IMG/VR virus record: IMGVR_UViG_3300010391_000222
Coordinates: 1 to 64,000 of that record
Strand: one strand, 5' to 3'
DNA: 64,000 nt
Origin: a virus
The position numbers were made by a program, and so were the translations under genes. A model generated the notes under the pieces. The model was given only the letters and a program-made list of their open reading frames with translations. It did no database searches and was not told where the DNA came from. Below, one piece after another: positions 32,866 through 62,262 of this stretch; the first letter of the stretch is position 1; each line of letters opens with the position of its first letter.

Positions 32866-33061
32866 TAGAAGTAACAAGTTCCATTATTGTATTTTCTCTA
32901 GGCCCCCACATATATTCATATGCATCATTCATATAATTCACTACTTCTTTAAACTCATTGGCGGCAATGTCGGCAAGTATAAGTGAATTACCATCGTCGT
33001 CTAAAATTTCTACTTCATTTAAGATAGACAGTAATTCAGCAAAGCGGTTCTTAGTTATCAT
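32858..33061 (-). CDS. Hypothetical protein
   Basis: The 67-residue acidic helical protein (RFAELLSILNEVEILDDDG; FKEVVNYMNDAYEYMW) overlaps both neighbours. No recognised motif. Confidence 0.5.
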   Translation of the reverse strand: MITKNRFAELLSILNEVEILDDDGNSLILADIAANEFKEVVNYMNDAYEYMWGPRENTIMELVTSND

Positions 33062-34013
33062 TCTTCCATTCTCCTATTTGAGACGAATAGTGTTTCAAAT
33101 GTGTCTTATTAATTATACTCTCATTGAGCGCGCCAATTAACGAGGTTCCCTTATCGGCACCCAATATATTGATCTTTACATCCGGTATATCATCGCTTAG
33201 GAACATCTGTAGGTCCTGTAACTGAGCAATAAGCTCTCCCGTAGTCCAGAACTCTTTGCCCCCCTGACCTATTGTAACAGGCCAAAACTTACGTATTTTC
33301 TTACCTTCTATCTCTTCTATTGCTTCAAAGTCTTTAGGTTTATCTCTTAGATTTGAATCAAAAGCCAATAAATTAACAGTCCTAAACCCAAGATAATGAG
33401 CGAGACTGATACTTCTAGTAGCACTACAAGTTCCTCCTTGAACAAAATTAGTTACATGTGACAAAGGTCCAGGAGCTTCTTTAGTACCTGTAAGACCGTT
33501 AGCTGCACTATGCCAGCCATAGATTTCATAGCCATTACGTGTAAGCCATCGAGTTACACTACTATGAGTCATAGAAGCCACCAAGAATTTGGTGGACTTA
33601 GGTGCAGCAGAATATAGGGTCTGGCGTAGATAACCATGGGTACTTATGCCAGTAATTTCCCTAGGATCAAGGACTACACAAAAATGTGGTCTTAGTCCAT
33701 ATTTAGCTAGTAGAGGCAAAGCATGTTTAATGGTAAATAGTTTATTCTTGGTGTTATCAAACCATTCAGGTCGAAGATACCCATTCTTTAAAAGACGTTC
33801 CAATGAAGGTCCTGCAGATACTACCCAAGCAATTTCATCATTTATTAGCGACTTAGTTATCCAACAATCTTTAGGAAGTAATCCTAGATTTTCTTTGGCA
33901 TTCTGAGCTATATTTTCCGAAGGTACAGAATCTCTTGGCTGAACAAGAATATTGAAACCATCGGTAGCATTCTTAATTAAACCTCCTGTAAATTTATTGC
34001 GTTGTTTATTCAT
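33051..34013 (-). CDS. DUF115 / Maf-like glycosyltransferase-type protein
   Basis: The 320-residue protein has the DUF115 marks: WVVSAGPSLERLLKNG (the phosphate loop), LRPHFCVVLDPRE, NFVQGGTCSATRSISLAHYLG and LLAFDSNLRD. Relatives include Maf proteins that add nonulosonic acids to flagellin and the MptE-type pyrophosphokinases. The G-G-x-x-x-x-x-x-x-A-x-x-LG segment corresponds to the nucleotide-sugar pocket. It begins a row of six sugar- and methyl-transfer genes and overlaps the next by eight bases, implying one pathway. The substrate is unknown. Confidence 0.7.
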   Translation of the reverse strand: MNKQRNKFTGGLIKNATDGFNILVQPRDSVPSENIAQNAKENLGLLPKDCWITKSLINDEIAWVVSAGPSLERLLKNGYLRPEWFDNTKNKLFTIKHALPLLAKYGLRPHFCVVLDPREITGISTHGYLRQTLYSAAPKSTKFLVASMTHSSVTRWLTRNGYEIYGWHSAANGLTGTKEAPGPLSHVTNFVQGGTCSATRSISLAHYLGFRTVNLLAFDSNLRDKPKDFEAIEEIEGKKIRKFWPVTIGQGGKEFWTTGELIAQLQDLQMFLSDDIPDVKINILGADKGTSLIGALNESIINKTHLKHYSSQIGEWKNDN

Positions 34014-34749
34014 TCCAATATTTGTCCGCCCAGGGGTGCTTCTTATGCATTGCAGGAAGGCTTATATCACGTCTAAGTCCATTTGTAAAGACAATTCTTG
34101 CATCTAAAGGAAGATCGGGAAGTTCTTCTATAGACCAATAATCCCAGACTTTATCGTCTTGGTTAATCTTAGGTAAACCTTGTCCTAAAACTTCCGTTTG
34201 CCAAGATTGATCAGACCCTACATAAGGAGAACCTCTATTCCAATATTCTAAAAAGAACTTACGTTTCTCTTCGCCTGGAGGAAGAGGAATCATATTGTAA
34301 ACTCTTTTAAAGGACAAATAAACTTGTTCTTTGCATCCAGTATCCATCATATATAGACAACCGGAATAACATTGAGGATTCTTAGTATCCGTATATCCTA
34401 CGAATGGTTCTTTTCGTCCAAAGATATGGTCTACATTCCCTACAATTGCTACATCAAGGTCTATATTGGCAATACGATCTCCAAGAATGCTACGCATTTC
34501 TTTGCTATAAAGGCCAAGACGGACAAAGCAACGTCCAAGGTCTCTAAATTCAGGCCAAATAGGAACTACTCGTATATTACTTACATCTATTCCTGTAGGA
34601 TCATCTGTAATAATTGTAAACGTATAGGGTATAGTAAGATTATCTTTGAGTCCCCTAGCAAGCCTATTGACATGTTTAGGAGTGAATTCATAAGTTCCAT
34701 GGTGTTTAGCATTTTTATCATACCAATAGAAGCTACATATGTTAATCAT
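34006..34749 (-). CDS. Glycosyltransferase (GT-A type)
   Basis: The 247-residue protein starts ICSFYWYDKNAKH and has the metal-binding D-x-D in NIDLDVAIVGNVDHIF. YSGCLYMMDTGCKEQV and PYVGSDQSWQTEV form the acceptor side. The order matches GT-A enzymes of families related to GT8. It needs a nucleotide sugar, probably from the host. Overlap with the DUF115 gene indicates joint expression. The acceptor could be a protein, modified DNA or surface glycan. Confidence 0.75.
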   Translation of the reverse strand: MINICSFYWYDKNAKHHGTYEFTPKHVNRLARGLKDNLTIPYTFTIITDDPTGIDVSNIRVVPIWPEFRDLGRCFVRLGLYSKEMRSILGDRIANIDLDVAIVGNVDHIFGRKEPFVGYTDTKNPQCYSGCLYMMDTGCKEQVYLSFKRVYNMIPLPPGEEKRKFFLEYWNRGSPYVGSDQSWQTEVLGQGLPKINQDDKVWDYWSIEELPDLPLDARIVFTNGLRRDISLPAMHKKHPWADKYWNE

Positions 34750-35466
34750 TTACCATTGACTCCTAAGAATACCCATGCCTCTTGGTTTGGGAACTAATCT
34801 ATCTTCTTCTTTAGGACTAAAATCAATTTCTTGGATTATTTCTAACCAATTAGTTTCTTCTATTTCTTTTCCTTCAAGACCATAATATTTATTAGTTTTA
34901 GGAAGTAAAAGTTTTACTGCTTGCCAAAAATGATTGGCATTAGCTTGAAATATTCCATACTTTATTTTGGTTTTATTTGTATTAAATTCCGATATGTCAT
35001 GAAAAGATAACCATCTAGTAAGGCTTCTATAATTTTTGAAATCTTGTATTACCCATTCAAAATTATGATTGGCATCTATGAAACACAAGTCGTATCTTTT
35101 GGTTTCTTTTTTTACAAAAGATTTAACTGTTTCAATTGTTCCTAGATTATTAGATAGACCATTGATTAATTCAATGTTATGTCCATAGTCTTTCTTGCAA
35201 AGAACAATTATATCTAAGAGTAAACTTCTTGCATTTACATTATCTCCTAGGTCTACAAGAACAATAGTAGACCCTTTAGGCATTAATTGTGCCATATAAT
35301 ATAAAGACTCGCCTGCATAACTTCCTATTTCTAAATAAGACCAGGGATTACTATTGAATTCTTTTGAAATCCACTTGGCATATTCCTCAAACTCCCAAAG
35401 ATTTTGAGAGGTTTTTATCTTTTCTAAATCAGGCTTAAATCGGTCTAGGAAATCATAGGTTATCAT
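34750..35466 (-). CDS. SAM-dependent methyltransferase (class I, cephalosporin-hydroxylase-like group)
   Basis: The 238-residue protein has motif I as YLEIGSYAGESLYYMAQLMP, STIVLVDLGD for the SAM ribose contact, and YDLCFIDANHNFEWV, WLSFHDISE in the latter part. This set is typical for Methyltransf_24-type enzymes found with glycosyltransferases in surface-sugar clusters. It could O-methylate a sugar. The stop abuts the next start. No DNA-methylase NPPY or DPPY motif is present. Confidence 0.7.
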   Translation of the reverse strand: MITYDFLDRFKPDLEKIKTSQNLWEFEEYAKWISKEFNSNPWSYLEIGSYAGESLYYMAQLMPKGSTIVLVDLGDNVNARSLLLDIIVLCKKDYGHNIELINGLSNNLGTIETVKSFVKKETKRYDLCFIDANHNFEWVIQDFKNYRSLTRWLSFHDISEFNTNKTKIKYGIFQANANHFWQAVKLLLPKTNKYYGLEGKEIEETNWLEIIQEIDFSPKEEDRLVPKPRGMGILRSQW

Positions 35467-36016
35467 TAACTGTCCTCTTGTATATTCCAGTAAGAAAAAT
35501 TAGATTAGGATCATTACTTGTCTTTTCGTTTTCTAATTCTTTGATTAAGATAAATCCTGTTGCATCCAACTTCTTTCGCCAGAAATCAGAGTTTTCTATA
35601 ATTAAATGAGCATTACGTCCATCAGGCAATGATTTATTCGATTTAACAAGGGCAATACTGAGATAAAAAACATAATGTCCAAAAAAATATATATCTTTAA
35701 GTACTTCATCTAAGCACTCCGGTTCTATATGTTCTAAGACACCTGAACATACTACTCCATCAAATTGACCAATAGGACGTACAGAGAATTTATCGACACA
35801 AGGATCATAATTAACTCCTAGTACTTTATATTTTCCTAAAAGAGTTGAAACAAGAGACCCTTTACCGCTACCATAGTCCAATAGACTTCTTACTTCATAG
35901 GGTTTAATAAGTTCTTCATAAACCTGATCTGCTCGTTTATAGCCTTTATTACCAAATAAATTCTTCTTATTGTGTAATTCTATATTTAAAGCCTTATACT
36001 CTTCACTTATTAACAC
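35453..36016 (-). CDS. SAM-dependent methyltransferase (Methyltransf_11/23-like)
   Basis: The 187-residue protein starts at GTG inside the preceding gene and has motif I as LLDYGSGKGSLVSTLLG, then DGVVCSGVLEHIEPECLDEV, the post-motif II loop of Rossmann methylases. GRNAHLIIENSDFWRKKL suits a small-molecule or sugar substrate rather than DNA. It is the second methylase in the sugar block. Both methylases together suggest a multiply methylated glycan or linked residue. Confidence 0.7.
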   Translation of the reverse strand: MLISEEYKALNIELHNKKNLFGNKGYKRADQVYEELIKPYEVRSLLDYGSGKGSLVSTLLGKYKVLGVNYDPCVDKFSVRPIGQFDGVVCSGVLEHIEPECLDEVLKDIYFFGHYVFYLSIALVKSNKSLPDGRNAHLIIENSDFWRKKLDATGFILIKELENEKTSNDPNLIFLTGIYKRTVNDNL

Positions 36017-36836
36017 TTAATTCATCCTTGCGCGGACCTTTTAAATGATCAAAGTACTCTTTAAGGACACTGGTTTCAAAAGGATAGAGACCATTTTTAT
36101 GCTCAGAGTTCATATCTTCATTTAAATTCTTTGCTTTAAATTTAATGTCCATGAATTCTTTCATTTTTACTATTGCAGAGAATATAAAAGCATCATGCCA
36201 TTCTCTATAAAAAAATAATTGTCCCGAACCATATGTATTTGCTTGTTCAAAAAATACATCTAAATTATTTTTTCGAACATCGCAAAGAATAAATCCAGTA
36301 TCTCCATATCCCCATTGAGGACCGCGATCCAACCAAGCAAGAGAAGCATCTCCCAAAAAGCTCTTTAGGACTTCCGACGTTACTTTCTTTTTAAGTATTA
36401 CGTCTGCATCTAACCATAATAGAGCATCTACTGCAGGTATAATTTCTCTAAATTCTCCTGGTAGCATAGGTTTTGAACTATTAAAAATCCCTCCATCTTT
36501 TAATTTAAAGGAAGCTTCTGCTAAAGCAAAAACCTTACAAGAAAACGGCATGAAATTATATCGAAATGTATCGGAAGGAGGTACTTGTGGGCGTTGTATT
36601 TGACTAAAAGTTTCATAAAAATAGACCCAACCATCTGATTGAGTATCTAGACACTTATAAGTAACAGGAATATTATTTATGACTAAAGGCAGTCCTACAG
36701 GAAATATTCCATTAATCCATATTTCAATTATAGAACCTTCGTCTAAGAAGAGATATTCTTTCCAAGTATCTAGACATTTTTTTGCATATTGCTCCCATAA
36801 TCTTTCATTAAAGGAAGTAACAAGTTTAACTCTCAT
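36003..36836 (-). CDS. Glycosyltransferase (GT-A type)
   Basis: The 277-residue protein contains ALLWLDADVILKKKV, the D-x-D metal site, preceded by FMPFSCKVFALAEAS. DTGFILCDVRKNNLDVFFEQ and YREWHDAFIFSAIV form the acceptor side. The order is typical of GT-A transferases in phage and bacterial sugar clusters. The ATG overlaps the preceding TGA. It differs clearly from the two other transferases, so the three are not recent duplicates. Confidence 0.75.
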   Translation of the reverse strand: MRVKLVTSFNERLWEQYAKKCLDTWKEYLFLDEGSIIEIWINGIFPVGLPLVINNIPVTYKCLDTQSDGWVYFYETFSQIQRPQVPPSDTFRYNFMPFSCKVFALAEASFKLKDGGIFNSSKPMLPGEFREIIPAVDALLWLDADVILKKKVTSEVLKSFLGDASLAWLDRGPQWGYGDTGFILCDVRKNNLDVFFEQANTYGSGQLFFYREWHDAFIFSAIVKMKEFMDIKFKAKNLNEDMNSEHKNGLYPFETSVLKEYFDHLKGPRKDELSVNK

Positions 36837-37588
36837 TGTAAAACTTTGATATCCTTTGCAGCTTCTTCTAGGACACTCCTAAGATAATGATTAAATACTT
36901 CAGAGTACTTACACTCTGGTTTCATTAAAGGTGATCCTTCCGTATAGTGTATTGCTCTTATGTCCCATTCCTTGATTCTCTTTTCCGTATGATCAGGAAT
37001 AGTATTCCAACCTTCATGAAGTTCTCCTATATCTTCATCCTTAAGCCAACCAAAGGAGTGTAACCACGATCCGTCCTTTGTATTTACTTCTTCTAGTGAG
37101 GGCATACACTTTGGATTTTGCATGTTAAAGATCATGAAAGAACTCCAAAGTTTTTTGTTATAATTGACTTGAACTTGATTGTCCATTTTAATTACATTAG
37201 GAGAAGCATAATCATGATGGACACACCATAAAGGCTTATCTTCGATATCTATTTCGTTGAATAATGAATATAAGTCCCTAATATAAACAAAGTCAGAATC
37301 AGTAAAGATACAAGGATCATTGGCTCTGACACCCAGATAACGAGCATAGTGAGGAACAAGAAAGCGAGTAAAGGCAAACTGTGTACTAAAAGGTCTTTGA
37401 TCTTCTGCATCTTCAGTTATCCCTTTCGATGTAATACGCCATTCTCTATTGAATAATCCAATGTTTCTTAGTTCTCTATGCTTTAAATAGTAAATACTAA
37501 TGGGTTTACTAGCAGTATCTAAGATACTCTCTCGACATACTTTAGCTGCAAGGTCTTGTCGGTCGTCATAGCCGATAAAGACATGCAA
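36833..37588 (-). CDS. Glycosyltransferase (GT8-like)
   Basis: I prefer TTG 37588, seven bases after the stop of the previous gene, which gives MHVFIGYDDRQDLAAKVC, a family-like beginning. An upstream TTG at 37672 would add a Lys-rich tail and overlap the DUF3310 gene by 77 bases. CIFTDSDFVYIRDLYSLF is the metal-binding D-x-D region, and WSSFMIFNMQNP and IPDHTEKRIKEWDIRAIHYT are the later conserved blocks, with the His near the end as in GT8. It is the first gene of the sugar block in transcription order. Confidence 0.75.
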   Translation of the reverse strand: MHVFIGYDDRQDLAAKVCRESILDTASKPISIYYLKHRELRNIGLFNREWRITSKGITEDAEDQRPFSTQFAFTRFLVPHYARYLGVRANDPCIFTDSDFVYIRDLYSLFNEIDIEDKPLWCVHHDYASPNVIKMDNQVQVNYNKKLWSSFMIFNMQNPKCMPSLEEVNTKDGSWLHSFGWLKDEDIGELHEGWNTIPDHTEKRIKEWDIRAIHYTEGSPLMKPECKYSEVFNHYLRSVLEEAAKDIKVLQ

Positions 37589-37595
37589 GTGTCTT

Positions 37596-37901
37596 TCAGA
37601 TTGCTTCTTTAGTCTCTTTTGAGGCACTGGTTTTTTTAATATACTTTCTTTTTGTTTTCTTTGTCTTATCAATGTAATGTACTTCTGATTGTATTCCGTA
37701 TTGATCTTCTAACAACATTTGTGCGTAATGAATGCATTTCTTAATATCTTCTGCTTGGTTCTTGATCTTATGACGACAAAGGTACTTAAGCATGTTACCT
37801 TCGTGCCAATCAAGTTTATTTTTTACAATAAAATCTATTGGTTCAATAGTAAGATTTTTATAAGGCGATTTTCCTACTTGTTGATTTCTTACTTTTGTCA
37901 T
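37596..37901 (-). CDS. DUF3310 small protein
   Basis: The 101-residue protein has EPIDFIVKNKLDWHEGNMLKYL and KNQAEDIKKCIHYAQML. The pattern I-x-(P/x)-I-D-F-I, E-G-N-x-x-K-Y-L-x-R defines the DUF3310 family, frequent near phage nucleotide and replication genes and sometimes fused to nucleotide kinases. Biochemical activity is not known. A Lys/Thr-rich tail follows. Confidence 0.7.
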   Translation of the reverse strand: MTKVRNQQVGKSPYKNLTIEPIDFIVKNKLDWHEGNMLKYLCRHKIKNQAEDIKKCIHYAQMLLEDQYGIQSEVHYIDKTKKTKRKYIKKTSASKETKEAI

Positions 37902-46510: not shown

Positions 46511-47587
46511 CTAGGCTGCTGCCTTTGTTTTCTTCATGTTCATCTCTGTACATACTTGTTTATTTAGAAAATCATAAAATCCTCCATTATGTCCTTCTGG
46601 AAGATTACACCAATGAGTAAGTGGGTCTTCCTTAAACCAATGTTCTATTCCTTTTTCTATGAAATAATGAAATTCTTTTATATTACTAGAAGTAATAGGA
46701 TATCTTCCTGTAACATCATTAGGTGTTACTTCCATTAATAGATCCTTGATTTTATTAAAATTGCTCATTGCAAGATCAAAGTCATTATTATTTATTGCTT
46801 CAATGATGTCAATCTTACGTATCTTTGAAACAAAAGCTTCGTAATAATCTTCCTTTGTATCTGCTACTAGTTGTACTACTTCTCTTGCTAGTCCGGTCAC
46901 AAGTGACATAAGAGGATATGAAGTTAACCAAAAGTTAGAAAGAGTTCTATACTCTAGTCCGTGATTAGGAGTTCTATATTCTCCGGCTTGTCCATAGACC
47001 TTGCGACGTTCTATATTTCCCCAATCTCGATCTATTAGGACACAAGTATTCCCTAGTATTATATCTAGCATAAAAATTGTTTTTTCTGGGCATTCCAATG
47101 CTTTATTAATCGAAGGACTGTCTTCATTTCTTCCCAAATGAATATGTCCTCCTGCGCTTCTATATTTATATGTATCTGGATTAATTGTAATTTTAGCTTC
47201 TGCATTATAAGTATTTTTAGAAGGACTACAACCAAGTTTACGAGATTTCTCGTCAAGAGCTTCTAATTCTTTCTTTGTAAACTTAATTGTCTGAGAAAAA
47301 TCAGGTTTTATTCCTTGTATTTTGCTATTTTTTATAGCCAATGTATCTCTTAATTTTCTAAAACAATGTGATATTTCATTAGCAAGATTAGCTCTACAGG
47401 TATCCGGTCTAGGATTTAGCTCTGCCTGTACTCCATCAATTGTAAATTTACTAGCATAAATACTTCCTGCTTTTAGTCCTTCTTGCGGTAAAATATCTTT
47501 TGCTTCTATAATTTTACCTTCATTGGTACGAAAAAAGAATTCTGGATCGCACCCAATAGAAAAACTTTGGTCCATTACCTTTCGCAT
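46511..47587 (-). CDS. Phage COOH-NH2 ligase type 2 (ATP-grasp amidoligase)
   Basis: The 358-residue protein has the marks of the family: SIGCDPEFFFRTNEGK near the start, FTIDGVQAELNPRPD, the SAGGHIHLGRNED segment, and YGQAGEYRTPNHGLEYRTLS, where His/Glu/Arg bind ATP and metals. These enzymes are predicted to join a carboxylate and an amine, and were grouped with phage-encoded peptide or metabolite modification systems. The substrate is unknown. It lies between polymerase and primase-helicase, far from the second amidoligase at 56458. The family assignment is firm; its role in the phage is not. Confidence 0.8.
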   Translation of the reverse strand: MRKVMDQSFSIGCDPEFFFRTNEGKIIEAKDILPQEGLKAGSIYASKFTIDGVQAELNPRPDTCRANLANEISHCFRKLRDTLAIKNSKIQGIKPDFSQTIKFTKKELEALDEKSRKLGCSPSKNTYNAEAKITINPDTYKYRSAGGHIHLGRNEDSPSINKALECPEKTIFMLDIILGNTCVLIDRDWGNIERRKVYGQAGEYRTPNHGLEYRTLSNFWLTSYPLMSLVTGLAREVVQLVADTKEDYYEAFVSKIRKIDIIEAINNNDFDLAMSNFNKIKDLLMEVTPNDVTGRYPITSSNIKEFHYFIEKGIEHWFKEDPLTHWCNLPEGHNGGFYDFLNKQVCTEMNMKKTKAAA

Positions 47588-54982: not shown

Positions 54983-56371
54983 CTAGGCATATATAGACCA
55001 CATTGCTTCATCTGAACCATCATCAAAGGGCTTATTTCCTATGGTAATTGTCTTTTTATCGTTATAATGAGACCTATTATACATATATTCGCTTGCTTGA
55101 TCAAAGTTATTTTGAAGCCAATCGTAAATAGCTTGCTTACCACCAAAGACACCATTGTTATACAACCATGCAGCAGCTTCATCAGGATAAGTAAGGACCC
55201 AATCTAATACTTCTGATTTATTCATCAATGCAAAATCTTTGGTATCTAAGATTCGTTCCTTCTCTTTGACAAATGCACTCATTGAAGAAGATTCTAAAGA
55301 ATCTTTTTCCTTGGATTCTACTGTAACTTGACTTTTAGTTTTTAATTCTAATAGGTCTTGTTGAGCAAGATGATTACTAATAATCTTTAGTGCGTCTCTT
55401 TGTTGCGATTCTTCGAATCGGCTCTCTACCATCTTGCGTTGCATTAGACCTACGACCATATCGAATCTCATGGTATCTTTGTTAGTATCTCTAATCCAGC
55501 CATATCCCCAATTAGGTCCTCCCTGCGTTCTCTTTGCAATAAGATATTCTCCCTCTTTAAGTTGACCTTTGATTTCATCAGTGATGTCAATTTCAGGAGG
55601 ATAAAGGGAATTGATAGTAGTAGCATACCCACGAGAATCAATGGAAGTAGCATGAGGATTACCATGATTACTAAGGTCCACCACAGTACTTTTAGACGGT
55701 TCTCCAGCATTATTATGGATATTATGATGTTGGTTCTTCCATTGATCTCCTATAAAGGAAGAAGCTCTATTGCTTCTATAATGAGGAGTATCCAAGGAAT
55801 ATCTATTGGAATACCAGACACCAGGAGCTTCTTTCTCGTTTGTATGCCCTTCTTTTTCATTGAAGATTATTACTCGTGAATCTCCAAGAATAAATAGTAA
55901 TTTATTATGTTTACCTACATCTCGTTCTACTAGTCTCTTGAACCCGGTATTGAATATAATATCTGGTTTTTCTTTAATGATAGGTTTTAATATTTCGTCT
56001 ACATAGACAGCAGTATCGCTTCTAGGATCGTTACTTTTCCATATACCTGTCCCTGAAATCACTCCATTATGCATCAAAGCTAGGTCCATCTGATCTCCTA
56101 GTTGAAGACTAAGGATTTCAAATGGATGAAGATTGTCATGAGACTTTTCTCCATGTGTCCTAAATCTAAAATGTACTGCTACAGGAGCTTCTTTCGGTAC
56201 TAGTTCAAAGACTCTTTTGAATGTCTCGAATGAGGACATTCTCTTGCAGTAATGCAACTTGTTGTCCTGAGCAAAGACAATACCCCAACCATCCCCATTG
56301 TTTATATGAGCATTACGCAGACTATTGGGTACTATTAGACTCTTCTTTGGTGCATAAGCGATCAGACACAT
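54983..56371 (-). CDS. Class II glutamine amidotransferase-type protein
   Basis: The 462-residue protein starts MCLIAYAPKK; once Met is removed, Cys2 becomes the N-terminal nucleophile of class II glutamine amidotransferases (Ntn hydrolases). Other family marks are NNGDGWGIVFAQ, AVHFRFRTHGEKS, DNLHPFEI and LALMHNGVISG, which form the glutamine pocket. The C-terminal half (EYLIAKRTQGGPNWGYGWIR and a Lys/Glu helix) is of unknown type. It would free ammonia from glutamine for a partner. The partner is probably the amidoligase two genes upstream, with only a micro-peptide between. AAGGA lies before the ATG. Confidence 0.75.
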   Translation of the reverse strand: MCLIAYAPKKSLIVPNSLRNAHINNGDGWGIVFAQDNKLHYCKRMSSFETFKRVFELVPKEAPVAVHFRFRTHGEKSHDNLHPFEILSLQLGDQMDLALMHNGVISGTGIWKSNDPRSDTAVYVDEILKPIIKEKPDIIFNTGFKRLVERDVGKHNKLLFILGDSRVIIFNEKEGHTNEKEAPGVWYSNRYSLDTPHYRSNRASSFIGDQWKNQHHNIHNNAGEPSKSTVVDLSNHGNPHATSIDSRGYATTINSLYPPEIDITDEIKGQLKEGEYLIAKRTQGGPNWGYGWIRDTNKDTMRFDMVVGLMQRKMVESRFEESQQRDALKIISNHLAQQDLLELKTKSQVTVESKEKDSLESSSMSAFVKEKERILDTKDFALMNKSEVLDWVLTYPDEAAAWLYNNGVFGGKQAIYDWLQNNFDQASEYMYNRSHYNDKKTITIGNKPFDDGSDEAMWSIYA

Positions 56372-56377
56372 CAGTTG

Positions 56378-56458
56378 TTATTCCTTTGATATTCTTCCAA
56401 CTATAAATCCTAAAATAAATATTATAAATATAATTAGTCCAAATGCAATTTCTTCCAT
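56378..56458 (-). CDS. Membrane micro-peptide (26 aa) between amidoligase and amidotransferase
   Basis: ATG 56458 shares a base with the amidoligase stop (TAATG), and GAGGAGG in the end of that gene provides its ribosome site. The product, MEEIAFGLIIFIIFILGFIV then GRISKE, is one membrane helix with acidic N- and basic C-terminus, giving a definite orientation. Its place suggests that it anchors or regulates the two enzymes. Confidence 0.6.
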   Translation of the reverse strand: MEEIAFGLIIFIIFILGFIVGRISKE

Positions 56459-58854
56459 TAGGCTACCTCCTCATATTCCTTGCTATACTTAGAGTTAAAG
56501 ACATGTACAGTATTGATGTATTTCTTCTTTTCCAGCCATTTAGTAAGCCATTTGTATTGTCCTCTATTATGCGCACACCATGTAACAAAGGCATTTACTG
56601 CCTTAGTTCCTTGTATATCTTTATTGGAAGCAATGTTGCACCAAGTAACTAGGGCATGTACAAAGTCTATATTCTTCATGAATCCTGCCTTAGCTACATT
56701 ACTTCTGAATATTCTTATTTCTATAGTAGGTTTTCCATTGGTATTAAGATTTATTGCTTCTCGTTCTATACCAGGAGTAAACCTAGGTAGAATTCTATGG
56801 TCTGTAGACAAGGCTTTACCTTGTTTGATCTTTTTGTCTACAATCTTGGCATATCTGGACTCTTTTCGTCCTGCAATATCTTCAATAAATACTCTATTGT
56901 TAGGATCACCTGTGAATTGTAAAAGTCTACCTAATTGTAATTGATTTATTGCTGCCTTGGAAATATGGATGTGTATTCCACAACTAGGTCTTTCGTTTTC
57001 TCCATTATTTGACCATCCTGCAAGGAATGTACTAGGTGCAAGGTCTTTTTCATTATCGGGGTAGTCTTCCTTGAAAAATCCTTCCCATGCTTCGGTCATA
57101 TGCCATCTATGCGTTCCTGGAACTGAGACTATTTCAAAACCGCTTATATGTTCATTTATTATACTGATATCCGATTTCATGATACCAATACCTTTTTTAT
57201 TCAAGAATTCATTTATGATAGATGCACAAAATGTCTGAGCTTCGTAAGCTCTACGATCTATATTCGAAAGACCCGATTGTTTTAATATGTCATGAATGTA
57301 CTTAGAAGGAGTTACTTCAAGTTCGATACCCATGTACATAGTCTTGTCTATTTCTTTAGACCCAGGATGATAGAGACTATTAGGGTTTTTGATTATTTCT
57401 ATTACAGGTTTTTCACCTTTGGCTAATCTATGATAACCTTCTTTTGAACTGGGATGATATGTAAGAGGATTAGCAGTATATTGCTTTATGAAATTATTTA
57501 ATCTAACGCCTCTACCACCTTGTCTATAAAGTATCTCATAACACATAGTACATAGATATAAAGGTTTCTTTGTTTCTTCAAATGGTTTCCCATTGCTATA
57601 ATTTATTGCATACCATCCTTGCGTCCAAACTTGAACAACAGGTCTTGTTACAACTACTTGTTCAACTAAATCAGAGCCTCCTAATTTTTTATTTATTAAA
57701 ACCTTAATAGACTCAATAATTTGATCTTTAGTAGCTCTTATAGGTATTACCGCAAGATTTCTTACAGATAATTTCCCCAGAAGAAATTCTTTTACTCTAG
57801 CATCAGGACTTACATTATATATTTCATGGCAATGATGTAAGGTTTCACAACAAAGACATGTAACAAATAATCTTTGATCTACTAGTCTTTTCGGTATGAA
57901 ATCATTAGGAGCATCACTTAAATATACAATTCCTTCATGTAAATATTCAAATCTATGCGTCCAATTAGAATGGTACAAAGTATTTTCTTCAAAAGGCTCT
58001 TTAGTTACTTTGTAGTACAAATTTTGCATCCATATTAGAAAATTTCTATGGTCCATACGTAAAGAATATCTTAGGTTTTTAGGAAAGTATCTTCGCCAGA
58101 TAAAAACCTGATTATCATGAATAGGCATTATATCTTTTATTATAGTTCTATAATCAAGAAAATCATTTGTACTAAGTCCTGCTTTAGTAGCTAGTGTATT
58201 TACTAGTTGTATACTTGTAAGATTCTTCCATTCACGGTCTATTGCATTATATTGATTTTTCCTTGCATTAGATATCCTATTATAGATACATTGTAAATAA
58301 TCGACTAAAGTAGTCTCGATTAGTAGAGGTTTATTTTTATTTTCTTCATATTTCTTGAGATCATTACGATATTTCCACCATATTTCTTTTATTGGAATCG
58401 GGATTACATCTTTGGAAACTGGTTGCCATGTCTGTGTCCAGGTATCGAACATTAACCAACTAAAATCTTTTAAGACATCTTCAATCTTATATATACACAT
58501 ATCTTCGATAACATTATAAGACTTTGTATTTACTTCACGAGGACTTAAAGGTTTAGAATTTATTACTCTTACAGTAAATTTATTTTGTTTGTTCCTTAGA
58601 GCTTTAATTATATTTCTTATATCACTAAGTTTAAATAAGATTTGATCTTTATTTAAATTATTTAGCTTTGAGTCCCAACCTATGTCAGGTTCTTTTTGTA
58701 GTGTTGTTGCCATCGGAGGATTACCGTCGGTAAGAGTTCTTGTAGTATTTAGACCTATTGTATAGGTATAGGTTCTATTAATCCAAGTATTCCAAGTATT
58801 TTGATCAGTTAGATACTCACCATCGTTATAGATAAGACGATTATTAGGAGGCAT
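56458..58854 (-). CDS. Amidoligase-domain protein with long N-terminal extension
   Basis: The 798-residue protein has an N-terminal half of unknown kind with two Cys groups (VTCLCCETLHHC; LCTMCYEILYRQ), possibly a zinc ribbon. The C-terminal part, about residues 505-720, carries the amidoligase set: TMYMGIELEVTPS, GFEIVSVPGTHRWH, RPSCGIHIHISKA and GKPTIEIRIFRSN. These Glu/His/Arg residues bind ATP and metal in the glutamine-synthetase-like fold. Such enzymes are predicted to ligate amines to peptide carboxylates. It starts a three-gene unit with the micro-peptide and amidotransferase. Confidence 0.72.
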   Translation of the reverse strand: MPPNNRLIYNDGEYLTDQNTWNTWINRTYTYTIGLNTTRTLTDGNPPMATTLQKEPDIGWDSKLNNLNKDQILFKLSDIRNIIKALRNKQNKFTVRVINSKPLSPREVNTKSYNVIEDMCIYKIEDVLKDFSWLMFDTWTQTWQPVSKDVIPIPIKEIWWKYRNDLKKYEENKNKPLLIETTLVDYLQCIYNRISNARKNQYNAIDREWKNLTSIQLVNTLATKAGLSTNDFLDYRTIIKDIMPIHDNQVFIWRRYFPKNLRYSLRMDHRNFLIWMQNLYYKVTKEPFEENTLYHSNWTHRFEYLHEGIVYLSDAPNDFIPKRLVDQRLFVTCLCCETLHHCHEIYNVSPDARVKEFLLGKLSVRNLAVIPIRATKDQIIESIKVLINKKLGGSDLVEQVVVTRPVVQVWTQGWYAINYSNGKPFEETKKPLYLCTMCYEILYRQGGRGVRLNNFIKQYTANPLTYHPSSKEGYHRLAKGEKPVIEIIKNPNSLYHPGSKEIDKTMYMGIELEVTPSKYIHDILKQSGLSNIDRRAYEAQTFCASIINEFLNKKGIGIMKSDISIINEHISGFEIVSVPGTHRWHMTEAWEGFFKEDYPDNEKDLAPSTFLAGWSNNGENERPSCGIHIHISKAAINQLQLGRLLQFTGDPNNRVFIEDIAGRKESRYAKIVDKKIKQGKALSTDHRILPRFTPGIEREAINLNTNGKPTIEIRIFRSNVAKAGFMKNIDFVHALVTWCNIASNKDIQGTKAVNAFVTWCAHNRGQYKWLTKWLEKKKYINTVHVFNSKYSKEYEEVA

Positions 58855-60785: not shown

Positions 60786-60949
60786 AGTCCATAGGTTCCT
60801 ATGAATGGTTCATGTATTTCCTGAATAGAATTCACTTTATTATATTCAGGATAATGATGGTTTACTCTCTTGAGGTATTGCCCTATAGTACAAGAAGTAC
60901 TGAATATTCCAATGATTAAAACTATGCGTGAAATGTTAATAGGAGACAT
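60782..60949 (-). CDS. Small lipoprotein (55 aa)
   Basis: ATG 60949 lies within the end of the SleB-like gene behind AAGGG. The sequence MSPINISRIVLIIGIFSTSC ends in a lipobox-like S-T-S-C, then a basic tail (IGQYLKRVNHHYPEYN). It may be a lipid-anchored partner of the hydrolase upstream. The overlap pattern (ATG within, stop in ATGA) supports translation. Confidence 0.6.
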   Translation of the reverse strand: MSPINISRIVLIIGIFSTSCTIGQYLKRVNHHYPEYNKVNSIQEIHEPFIGTYGL

Positions 60950-61604
60950 TGGTAATACCCTTGCGTAAGAAGATACCTTGACCTATGCGTTCACGTTCTT
61001 CGTATTCATGGCTCCATGGAGGAGGCAGGCGTCTCCAACGAGTACACCTATAGCGTTTCTCCCAGATAATGATTATATGACCACGATGCCTGAGTCTAAG
61101 TTTTACAAAGATACGCTTATAGCGTACACATCTAGGCTCCATTGCATGAGGATGATAATAATAATTATAGCCATTGGAATAGTCTACTCCTTGTAATCTA
61201 TCTTGGATTACTTCATTGCATAAGGTTTTTACATGATCGAACCGGGGCATGTCATAGACATATCTAGAAGATATAAAACGTCTAGACCGTGTTCCTGGGT
61301 TCCAGACAGAGAATTGCTTAGGGGCCAATAGAACTTCTTGAAGATTATTGCCCCATGCTCCACTTTGCCATCTATTATAGATGACATTACAGACAGCCTT
61401 TATCTCTTGATCTTCTTGTTTGCCTACTTCACCATAGACGGTACGGTACATTACATCTAAGTCTTCGGTACTGAAGGGATATTCTATAGGATTAAGACTA
61501 GGAATATTGTCATTGACTGGCCTATCATTAATCCTAGTAGTTATAGTAGTACTACATCCTATGATATATAGACATAGTAGAGCTACGACAAGAAACTTAT
61601 TCAT
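60936..61604 (-). CDS. SleB-type cell-wall hydrolase lipoprotein
   Basis: ATG 61604 gives MNKFLVVALLCLYIIGC, a lipoprotein signal with a clear I-I-G-C lipobox; a start at 61649 would spoil it. The mature protein has MYRTVYGEVGKQEDQEIKAV and VIYNRWQSGAWGNNLQEVLL, then FSVWNPGTRSRR. This is the core of the Hydrolase_2 (SleB) family of peptidoglycan hydrolases, with the catalytic Glu in GEVG. The C-terminal 55 residues are unusually Arg-rich. A lipid-anchored wall hydrolase is unusual for lysis and might act on superinfection or envelope entry. Confidence 0.72.
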   Translation of the reverse strand: MNKFLVVALLCLYIIGCSTTITTRINDRPVNDNIPSLNPIEYPFSTEDLDVMYRTVYGEVGKQEDQEIKAVCNVIYNRWQSGAWGNNLQEVLLAPKQFSVWNPGTRSRRFISSRYVYDMPRFDHVKTLCNEVIQDRLQGVDYSNGYNYYYHPHAMEPRCVRYKRIFVKLRLRHRGHIIIIWEKRYRCTRWRRLPPPWSHEYEERERIGQGIFLRKGITNVSY

Positions 61605-62262
61605 TGCGTCGCTCAGGGACTCTATATGTAATCCTATTGTAGTCTGCATTTAATTCCCTTTCTAGAGTATTTTCGTCTTGTTGTTCTACAGCGTTCTCTA
61701 AATCAAATGGATCATCAATATCTTCTTCGGGTTCTTCTGGTATTTCTTCTCCAAACGGCTCTAGTCCTGCTTCTAATCTATTAAGTACTACACCATCAGG
61801 TTCTTCTGGGGTATCTACTATATCAGCAGGTTGCATTTGACCTAGATGTCTTACAAGTATATCACCTAAAACATGGGCTGGTCTTCCTGGAACTAATTCT
61901 TCTAATTCATTGGCCTCTATACCTTGTACATATTCTTCATTTGTATTTACAATGTTTTCTTGCAGTACTTGATTTACTATAGGACTACTAGGTACTTCAA
62001 ATAGATTGCCTTTGTATATTTTTCTTTTATTTCCCATAACATCTACTGCATGGATATCCAGACAAGGAATTCTTTCGTTCTTGTCATTTATTGTTTCAAA
62101 AAAATCGACTTCAAATTTACCATAGCTTTTATCATGCCATAGTTCAAAGAATGCACCACAAATACCATAGTTTTTTCTATAGTATTTACCAGTATCATTA
62201 TTCCTCAATGAAACTCTAAATGAAATTTCTTCTTTTTCAGTTAATTCTGGTGTCTTTACCAT
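61597..62262 (-). CDS. Acidic hypothetical protein
   Basis: The 221-residue protein has an ordered front (EKEEISFRVSLRNNDTGKYY; CGAFFELWHDKSYGKFEVDF) and a very acidic, probably disordered end (EEIPEEPEEDIDDPFDLENA). It overlaps the SleB gene by eight bases. The acidic end could mimic nucleic acid. No family recognised. Confidence 0.5.
   Translation of the reverse strand: MVKTPELTEKEEISFRVSLRNNDTGKYYRKNYGICGAFFELWHDKSYGKFEVDFFETINDKNERIPCLDIHAVDVMGNKRKIYKGNLFEVPSSPIVNQVLQENIVNTNEEYVQGIEANELEELVPGRPAHVLGDILVRHLGQMQPADIVDTPEEPDGVVLNRLEAGLEPFGEEIPEEPEEDIDDPFDLENAVEQQDENTLERELNADYNRITYRVPERRNE

Follow-up and report, generated by a model that had tools for sequence, protein, structure and literature searches.

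Does a phage that carries an amidoligase gene, a very short hydrophobic ORF and a glutamine amidotransferase (GATase) gene in close order encode a working amidation unit, and if so, on what might such a unit act? The locus in question lies in a 64,000-nucleotide stretch of viral DNA (here called the window), positions 1 to 64,000 of the 66.8-kb IMG/VR record IMGVR_UViG_3300010391_000222. Annotation of phage amidoligase-GATase genes goes back to a 2009 prediction by Iyer et al., as cited in later papers, and both the pairing and a role in the cell wall or in superinfection exclusion have been proposed as predictions by Iyer and colleagues and by Hardies (2013), as relayed in passages of PMC10580990 and PMC5498523. 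No substrate assay of a phage amidoligase-GATase pair is reported in the literature we found on these cassettes. Such pairs are widespread in phages, and a two-gene form without ATP-grasp or gamma-glutamyl cyclotransferase (GGCT) genes is a simple system for asking if these two enzymes suffice to form an amide and which substrate receives it.

The coordinates and strand given for the three leftward genes in the initial annotation were confirmed (Table 1), and all three have good ribosome-binding sites. The amidoligase ATG has its own site, GAGGAA, about 9 nt upstream; the amidoligase stop and the micro-ORF start share the sequence TAATG behind a GAGGAGG ribosome-binding site, which confirms the coupling claimed for these two genes; and the GATase ATG lies 6 nt past the micro-ORF stop with AAAGGA upstream of it. 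A terminator-like hairpin of 11 pairs (59172-59146) is present upstream of the amidoligase gene, following a tRNA-Thr gene.

Table 1. Positions in the window of the amidoligase-GATase locus, its subregions and a second predicted ligase gene.
Feature	Position	Strand	Description
Amidoligase gene, 798 aa	56458..58854	-	Orphan N-terminal region, CxxC at 333-336 (CLCC), CxxC at 435-438 (CTMC), then predicted GS-fold Amidoligase_2 domain (~residues 505-775)
Hydrophobic micro-ORF, 26 aa	56378..56458	-	TAATG-coupled to amidoligase gene
Class II glutamine amidotransferase (GATase), 462 aa	54983..56371	-	Predicted Ntn fold, residues 1-195, plus poorly modelled C-terminal extension
Amidoligase_2 catalytic region	56461..57348	-	Residues ~503-798; ExE, DxS, GxE, HxH, GR and ExRxF motifs
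Cys-rich segment CLCC...CTMC, putative zinc site	57541..57858	-	Residues 333-438 of amidoligase
COOH-NH2_lig (PF14395, phiEco32-like), second ligase	46511..47587	-	58 bits versus cut-off of 25

Residues 617-735 of the amidoligase match Amidoligase_2 (PF12224) at 18.4 bits, which is under the Pfam cut-off of 22; the assignment is secured by matches to phrog_16683 (5e-10) and to MEP402 gp06 (8e-15 by tblastn) and by 17 aligned homologues, all of which match the PF12224 model at E <= 0.01 (best 1.7e-10). The protein carries the motifs GIELE (E511, E513), KSDIS (D562, S564), GFE (E574), CGIHIH (H628), R663 and EIRIF (E712, R714, F716), and all of these numbered residues, as well as G572 and G626, are invariant over the 17 homologues, so the C-terminal motif set of the initial annotation is borne out. 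The AlphaFold model of the whole protein has a mean pLDDT of 47 and is confident in parts of the C-terminal region only, where most values lie at 50-88 and some fall to about 32-50. Its best Foldseek matches in the PDB are glutamine synthetases, although the match is a weak one (E 5e-3, prob 0.91), and its top viral structural match, at 5.9e-12, is a phage protein named "Amidoligase enzyme". The model gives moderate support to a glutamine synthetase (GS)-like fold.

The GATase has the motifs of a class II enzyme, namely the N-terminal Cys nucleophile, HFRxxTHG, HNG and (S/T)D(T/S), and Cys2, R69, T72, G74, H101-N102-G103 and D119 do not vary across 18 homologues; in class II GATases such residues bind glutamine or act as the nucleophile. 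A profile of the family finds GlmS (6.7e-9) and PurF. In the structural model residues 1-195 form an Ntn fold, with pLDDT of about 90 (range about 77-95 over residues 1-190), and Foldseek matches it to the GlmS/GFAT glutaminase, PurF and EgtC with E values down to 5e-7; the model is poor over the C-terminal 260 residues. The model argues strongly for an Ntn fold, whose absence would have spoken against the initial annotation, and the domain is complete. A single scan of cellular genome contigs with this protein turned up no relative that could be confirmed.

Are the two genes found together elsewhere? Scans of viral contigs with the amidoligase or the GATase as single proteins gave no close relatives. 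Usable GATase patterns came from alignments of two rows, those of six and five rows having diverged too far, and the scan with these patterns retrieved 23 contigs; one was left out of the count because its locus is cut at the contig edge (L039). In all 22 testable loci, each found through its GATase alone, an amidoligase gene lies directly upstream of the GATase gene on the same strand, with a gap of -20 to +165 nt and with many pairs overlapping by 1 or 10 nt. Named phages with the pair are MEP401/402, MW202733, Marvin and StenR_269, and the phage setting proposed for the system is likewise supported. These findings support a functional pair whose products may form a complex, and the near-universal gene order makes such a physical complex directly testable. 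Both checks by which the initial annotation could have been refuted, on predicted folds and on the co-occurrence of homologues, came out in favour of the pair, although the fold match of the amidoligase is weak. Thirteen of the IMG/VR contigs have an ATP-grasp gene close to the pair, in most cases as the next gene downstream of the GATase, and a GGCT gene is beside or near it in several phages (L013, L025, L042, Ka1 and StenR_269). Some contigs (L028 and L040) contain two successive pairs, which suggests duplication or two substrates.

The N-terminal region of the amidoligase, about 330-500 residues, is an orphan and is new here. A search of this half of the protein for known domains found no meaningful relative: residues 1-497 have no phage match at E=1, profile comparison with the N-terminal regions of relatives gave similarity no better than that of shuffled sequence, and the sole PDB match (E 0.058) was dismissed as meaningless. 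The Cys-rich extension reported initially is present, but it is not the unusual addition it was taken for, and we rejected the idea that it is unique, since most close relatives also have a CxxC pair or array ahead of the catalytic domain. In the alignment CLCC and CTMC line up with the paired motifs of these proteins. The two motifs are usually 17 residues apart in relatives and about 100 apart in the window protein, and residues 1-499 have no detectable similarity; for these reasons the correspondence is likely, not proven. Arrays of 4 to 17 CxxC motifs are seen in other relatives, and one viral structural match of the amidoligase model carries the name LIM-domain protein. The more distant amidoligases of Ka1, StenR_269, AR1086 and L020 are without CxxC motifs. 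From the motif pattern we infer a putative zinc-binding site at the CxxC/CxxC segment. The zinc-type array is unusually long in one amidoligase (L037:6117-7832), whose N-terminal half contains 17 CxxC motifs.

The micro-ORF has a strongly hydrophobic product, with a maximum Kyte-Doolittle mean of 3.26, and this property, together with the coupling and the ribosome-binding site, makes its translation plausible. Hydrophobicity alone is weak evidence, however, because a mean of 2.9 is reached by 6 of the window's 395 short ORFs with an ATG start. No similar ORF occurs in the amidoligase-GATase gaps of the relatives inspected, and most relatives have no gap at all; a membrane role is therefore a guess. 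The ORF stands as a plausible gene but not as a conserved membrane partner, and the description of the whole system as membrane-associated, which depended on this one ORF, was not borne out.

What, then, might the pair do? We consider it somewhat probable that it is a two-enzyme, glutamine-dependent amidation unit that acts on a carboxylate. The class II GATase would free ammonia from glutamine by means of its N-terminal cysteine (Cys2, after removal of Met1), and the GS-fold amidoligase would phosphorylate a carboxylate with Mg-ATP and capture the ammonia, or possibly another amine, to give an amide. Binding of the substrate or of the partner would fall to the CxxC/CxxC site and the N-terminal region. 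The likeliest target would be a host-envelope or peptidoglycan carboxylate, as has been proposed in print for related cassettes. Glutamine-fed amidation is favored because the ligase and GATase are the only parts common to all testable loci. Neither an ATP-grasp ligase nor a GGCT gene was detected in the 66.8-kb record, which may be incomplete, and since these genes come and go beside the pair elsewhere, the amidoligase and GATase look like the minimal working unit. Amidation chemistry, as the initial annotation had suggested, is supported as the likeliest reading by the invariant motifs and the pairing. Against it, the glutaminase-like Ntn fold may be that of a hydrolase, EgtC being among the structural matches, the amidoligase model is poor beyond its C-terminal part, and GS-fold ligases often join amines to glutamate instead of adding ammonia.

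The main rival, which we judge unlikely but worth serious weight, is a gamma-glutamyl cycle: glutamate (or another acid) would be coupled to an amine by the amidoligase, and the resulting gamma-glutamyl amide would afterwards be cleaved by the GATase-fold protein. Ergothioneine biosynthesis provides the example: the GS-fold ligase EgtA is the partner of EgtC, a class II GATase-fold protein, and EgtC structures are among the Foldseek matches of the window GATase. GmaS and gamma-glutamylcysteine synthetase are, in addition, among the weaker structural matches of the amidoligase model, and GGCT, found near the pair in the phages named above, is another enzyme that removes gamma-glutamyl groups. 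EgtC is a gamma-glutamyl amidohydrolase, as the window GATase may be too. However, the top sequence matches of the window GATase are true glutaminases; GGCT is among the genes undetected in this record; and a protect-then-deprotect scheme requires an intermediate processing enzyme, none of which is conserved with the pair. Decidedly improbable is a peptide-tagging or protein-conjugation system, in which proteins of the host or phage, picked by the zinc-site region, would be tagged by the ligase with amino acids or a peptide. The weak structural matches of the amidoligase model include Dop, a GS-fold enzyme that belongs to the Pup system, many relatives have an ATP-grasp ligase gene after the pair and a CxxC-type extension could bind macromolecules, but no tag-like peptide or target occupies a conserved place, the 26-aa ORF is unconserved and this record has no detected ATP-grasp gene. 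Still more doubtful, and offered as speculation, is the idea that the orphan N-terminal region (up to about 500 residues) and zinc-site segment make up a new substrate-recruiting module. It would direct the amidoligase, supplied by glutamine, to one particular macromolecule of the host, and the 26-aa peptide would either tether the system to the membrane or itself be the peptide on which the ligase acts. Finally, phage genomes are mosaic, but accidental adjacency of unlinked metabolic genes is scarcely credible and was rejected in view of the 22/22 survey and the frequent overlaps across divergent contigs.

Glutamine-dependent amidation by such a pair has a cellular parallel in MurT-GatD, where a ligase and a glutamine amidotransferase make a carboxamide in peptidoglycan, and MurT has a Cys4 zinc site. 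The analogy is one of logic only, as the fold of MurT is that of Mur ligases and GatD belongs to class I. Closer counterparts are found among phages. In the Methylophilales (OM43) phages MEP401 and MEP402 (PMC10580990) the amidoligase gene is likewise followed directly by a class II GATase gene and a CxxC pair precedes the catalytic domain, with identities to the window proteins of about 29% (ligase) and 34% (GATase); unlike the window, these phages have a 10-nt gene overlap without a micro-ORF, the MEP402 ligase is 548 aa long with an N-terminal region not detectably related, and COOH-NH2_lig was not found in the MEP402 record. The LUZ24-, phiEco32- and RIO-1-like podoviruses have a predicted peptidoglycan-modification cassette (PMC3890496, PMC5498523; for example Pseudomonas phage Ka1) that shares COOH-NH2_lig, amidoligase and GATase with the window, but their cassette also contains ATP-grasp and GGCT and its genes are kept together, whereas the COOH-NH2_lig gene of the window is about 7.4 kb from the pair. 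Mycobacterium phage Marvin also has adjacent amidoligase and GATase genes (gp105-gp106; Amidoligase_2 19.5 bits, four CxxC motifs), but its ligase is 453 aa, with the zinc-type motifs at the extreme N-terminus and without a long orphan region. The window pair is a real member of this known kind of phage enzyme pair, set apart by its reduced cassette and by the orphan region at the N-terminus of its ligase; new here are that region, the lack of any detected ATP-grasp or GGCT gene in the record and the presence of COOH-NH2_lig as a second ligase, which the initial annotation of the locus does not mention.

The COOH-NH2_lig gene directly adjoins a primase-helicase gene and is possibly a remote member of the same pathway as the pair. 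It was not found in 25 other records, many of them fragments, by a search that recovers the window copy. PADLOC gave no match. The phage also encodes T7-type replication genes, a ribonucleotide reductase and endonuclease I. Outside the window, at about 65509-66297 of the record (L044 2010-2798, minus strand), is a pentapeptide-repeat-like protein with ADLRRADLR repeats. Leftward genes at 33051-37672 encode an MptE-like protein, two methyltransferases and further unassigned ORFs, possibly a cluster for surface-sugar modification. At 60936-61649 on the minus strand, 2 kb upstream of the amidoligase gene, lies the gene for a cell wall hydrolase of the SleB type (Hydrolase_2) whose N-terminus resembles that of a lipoprotein.
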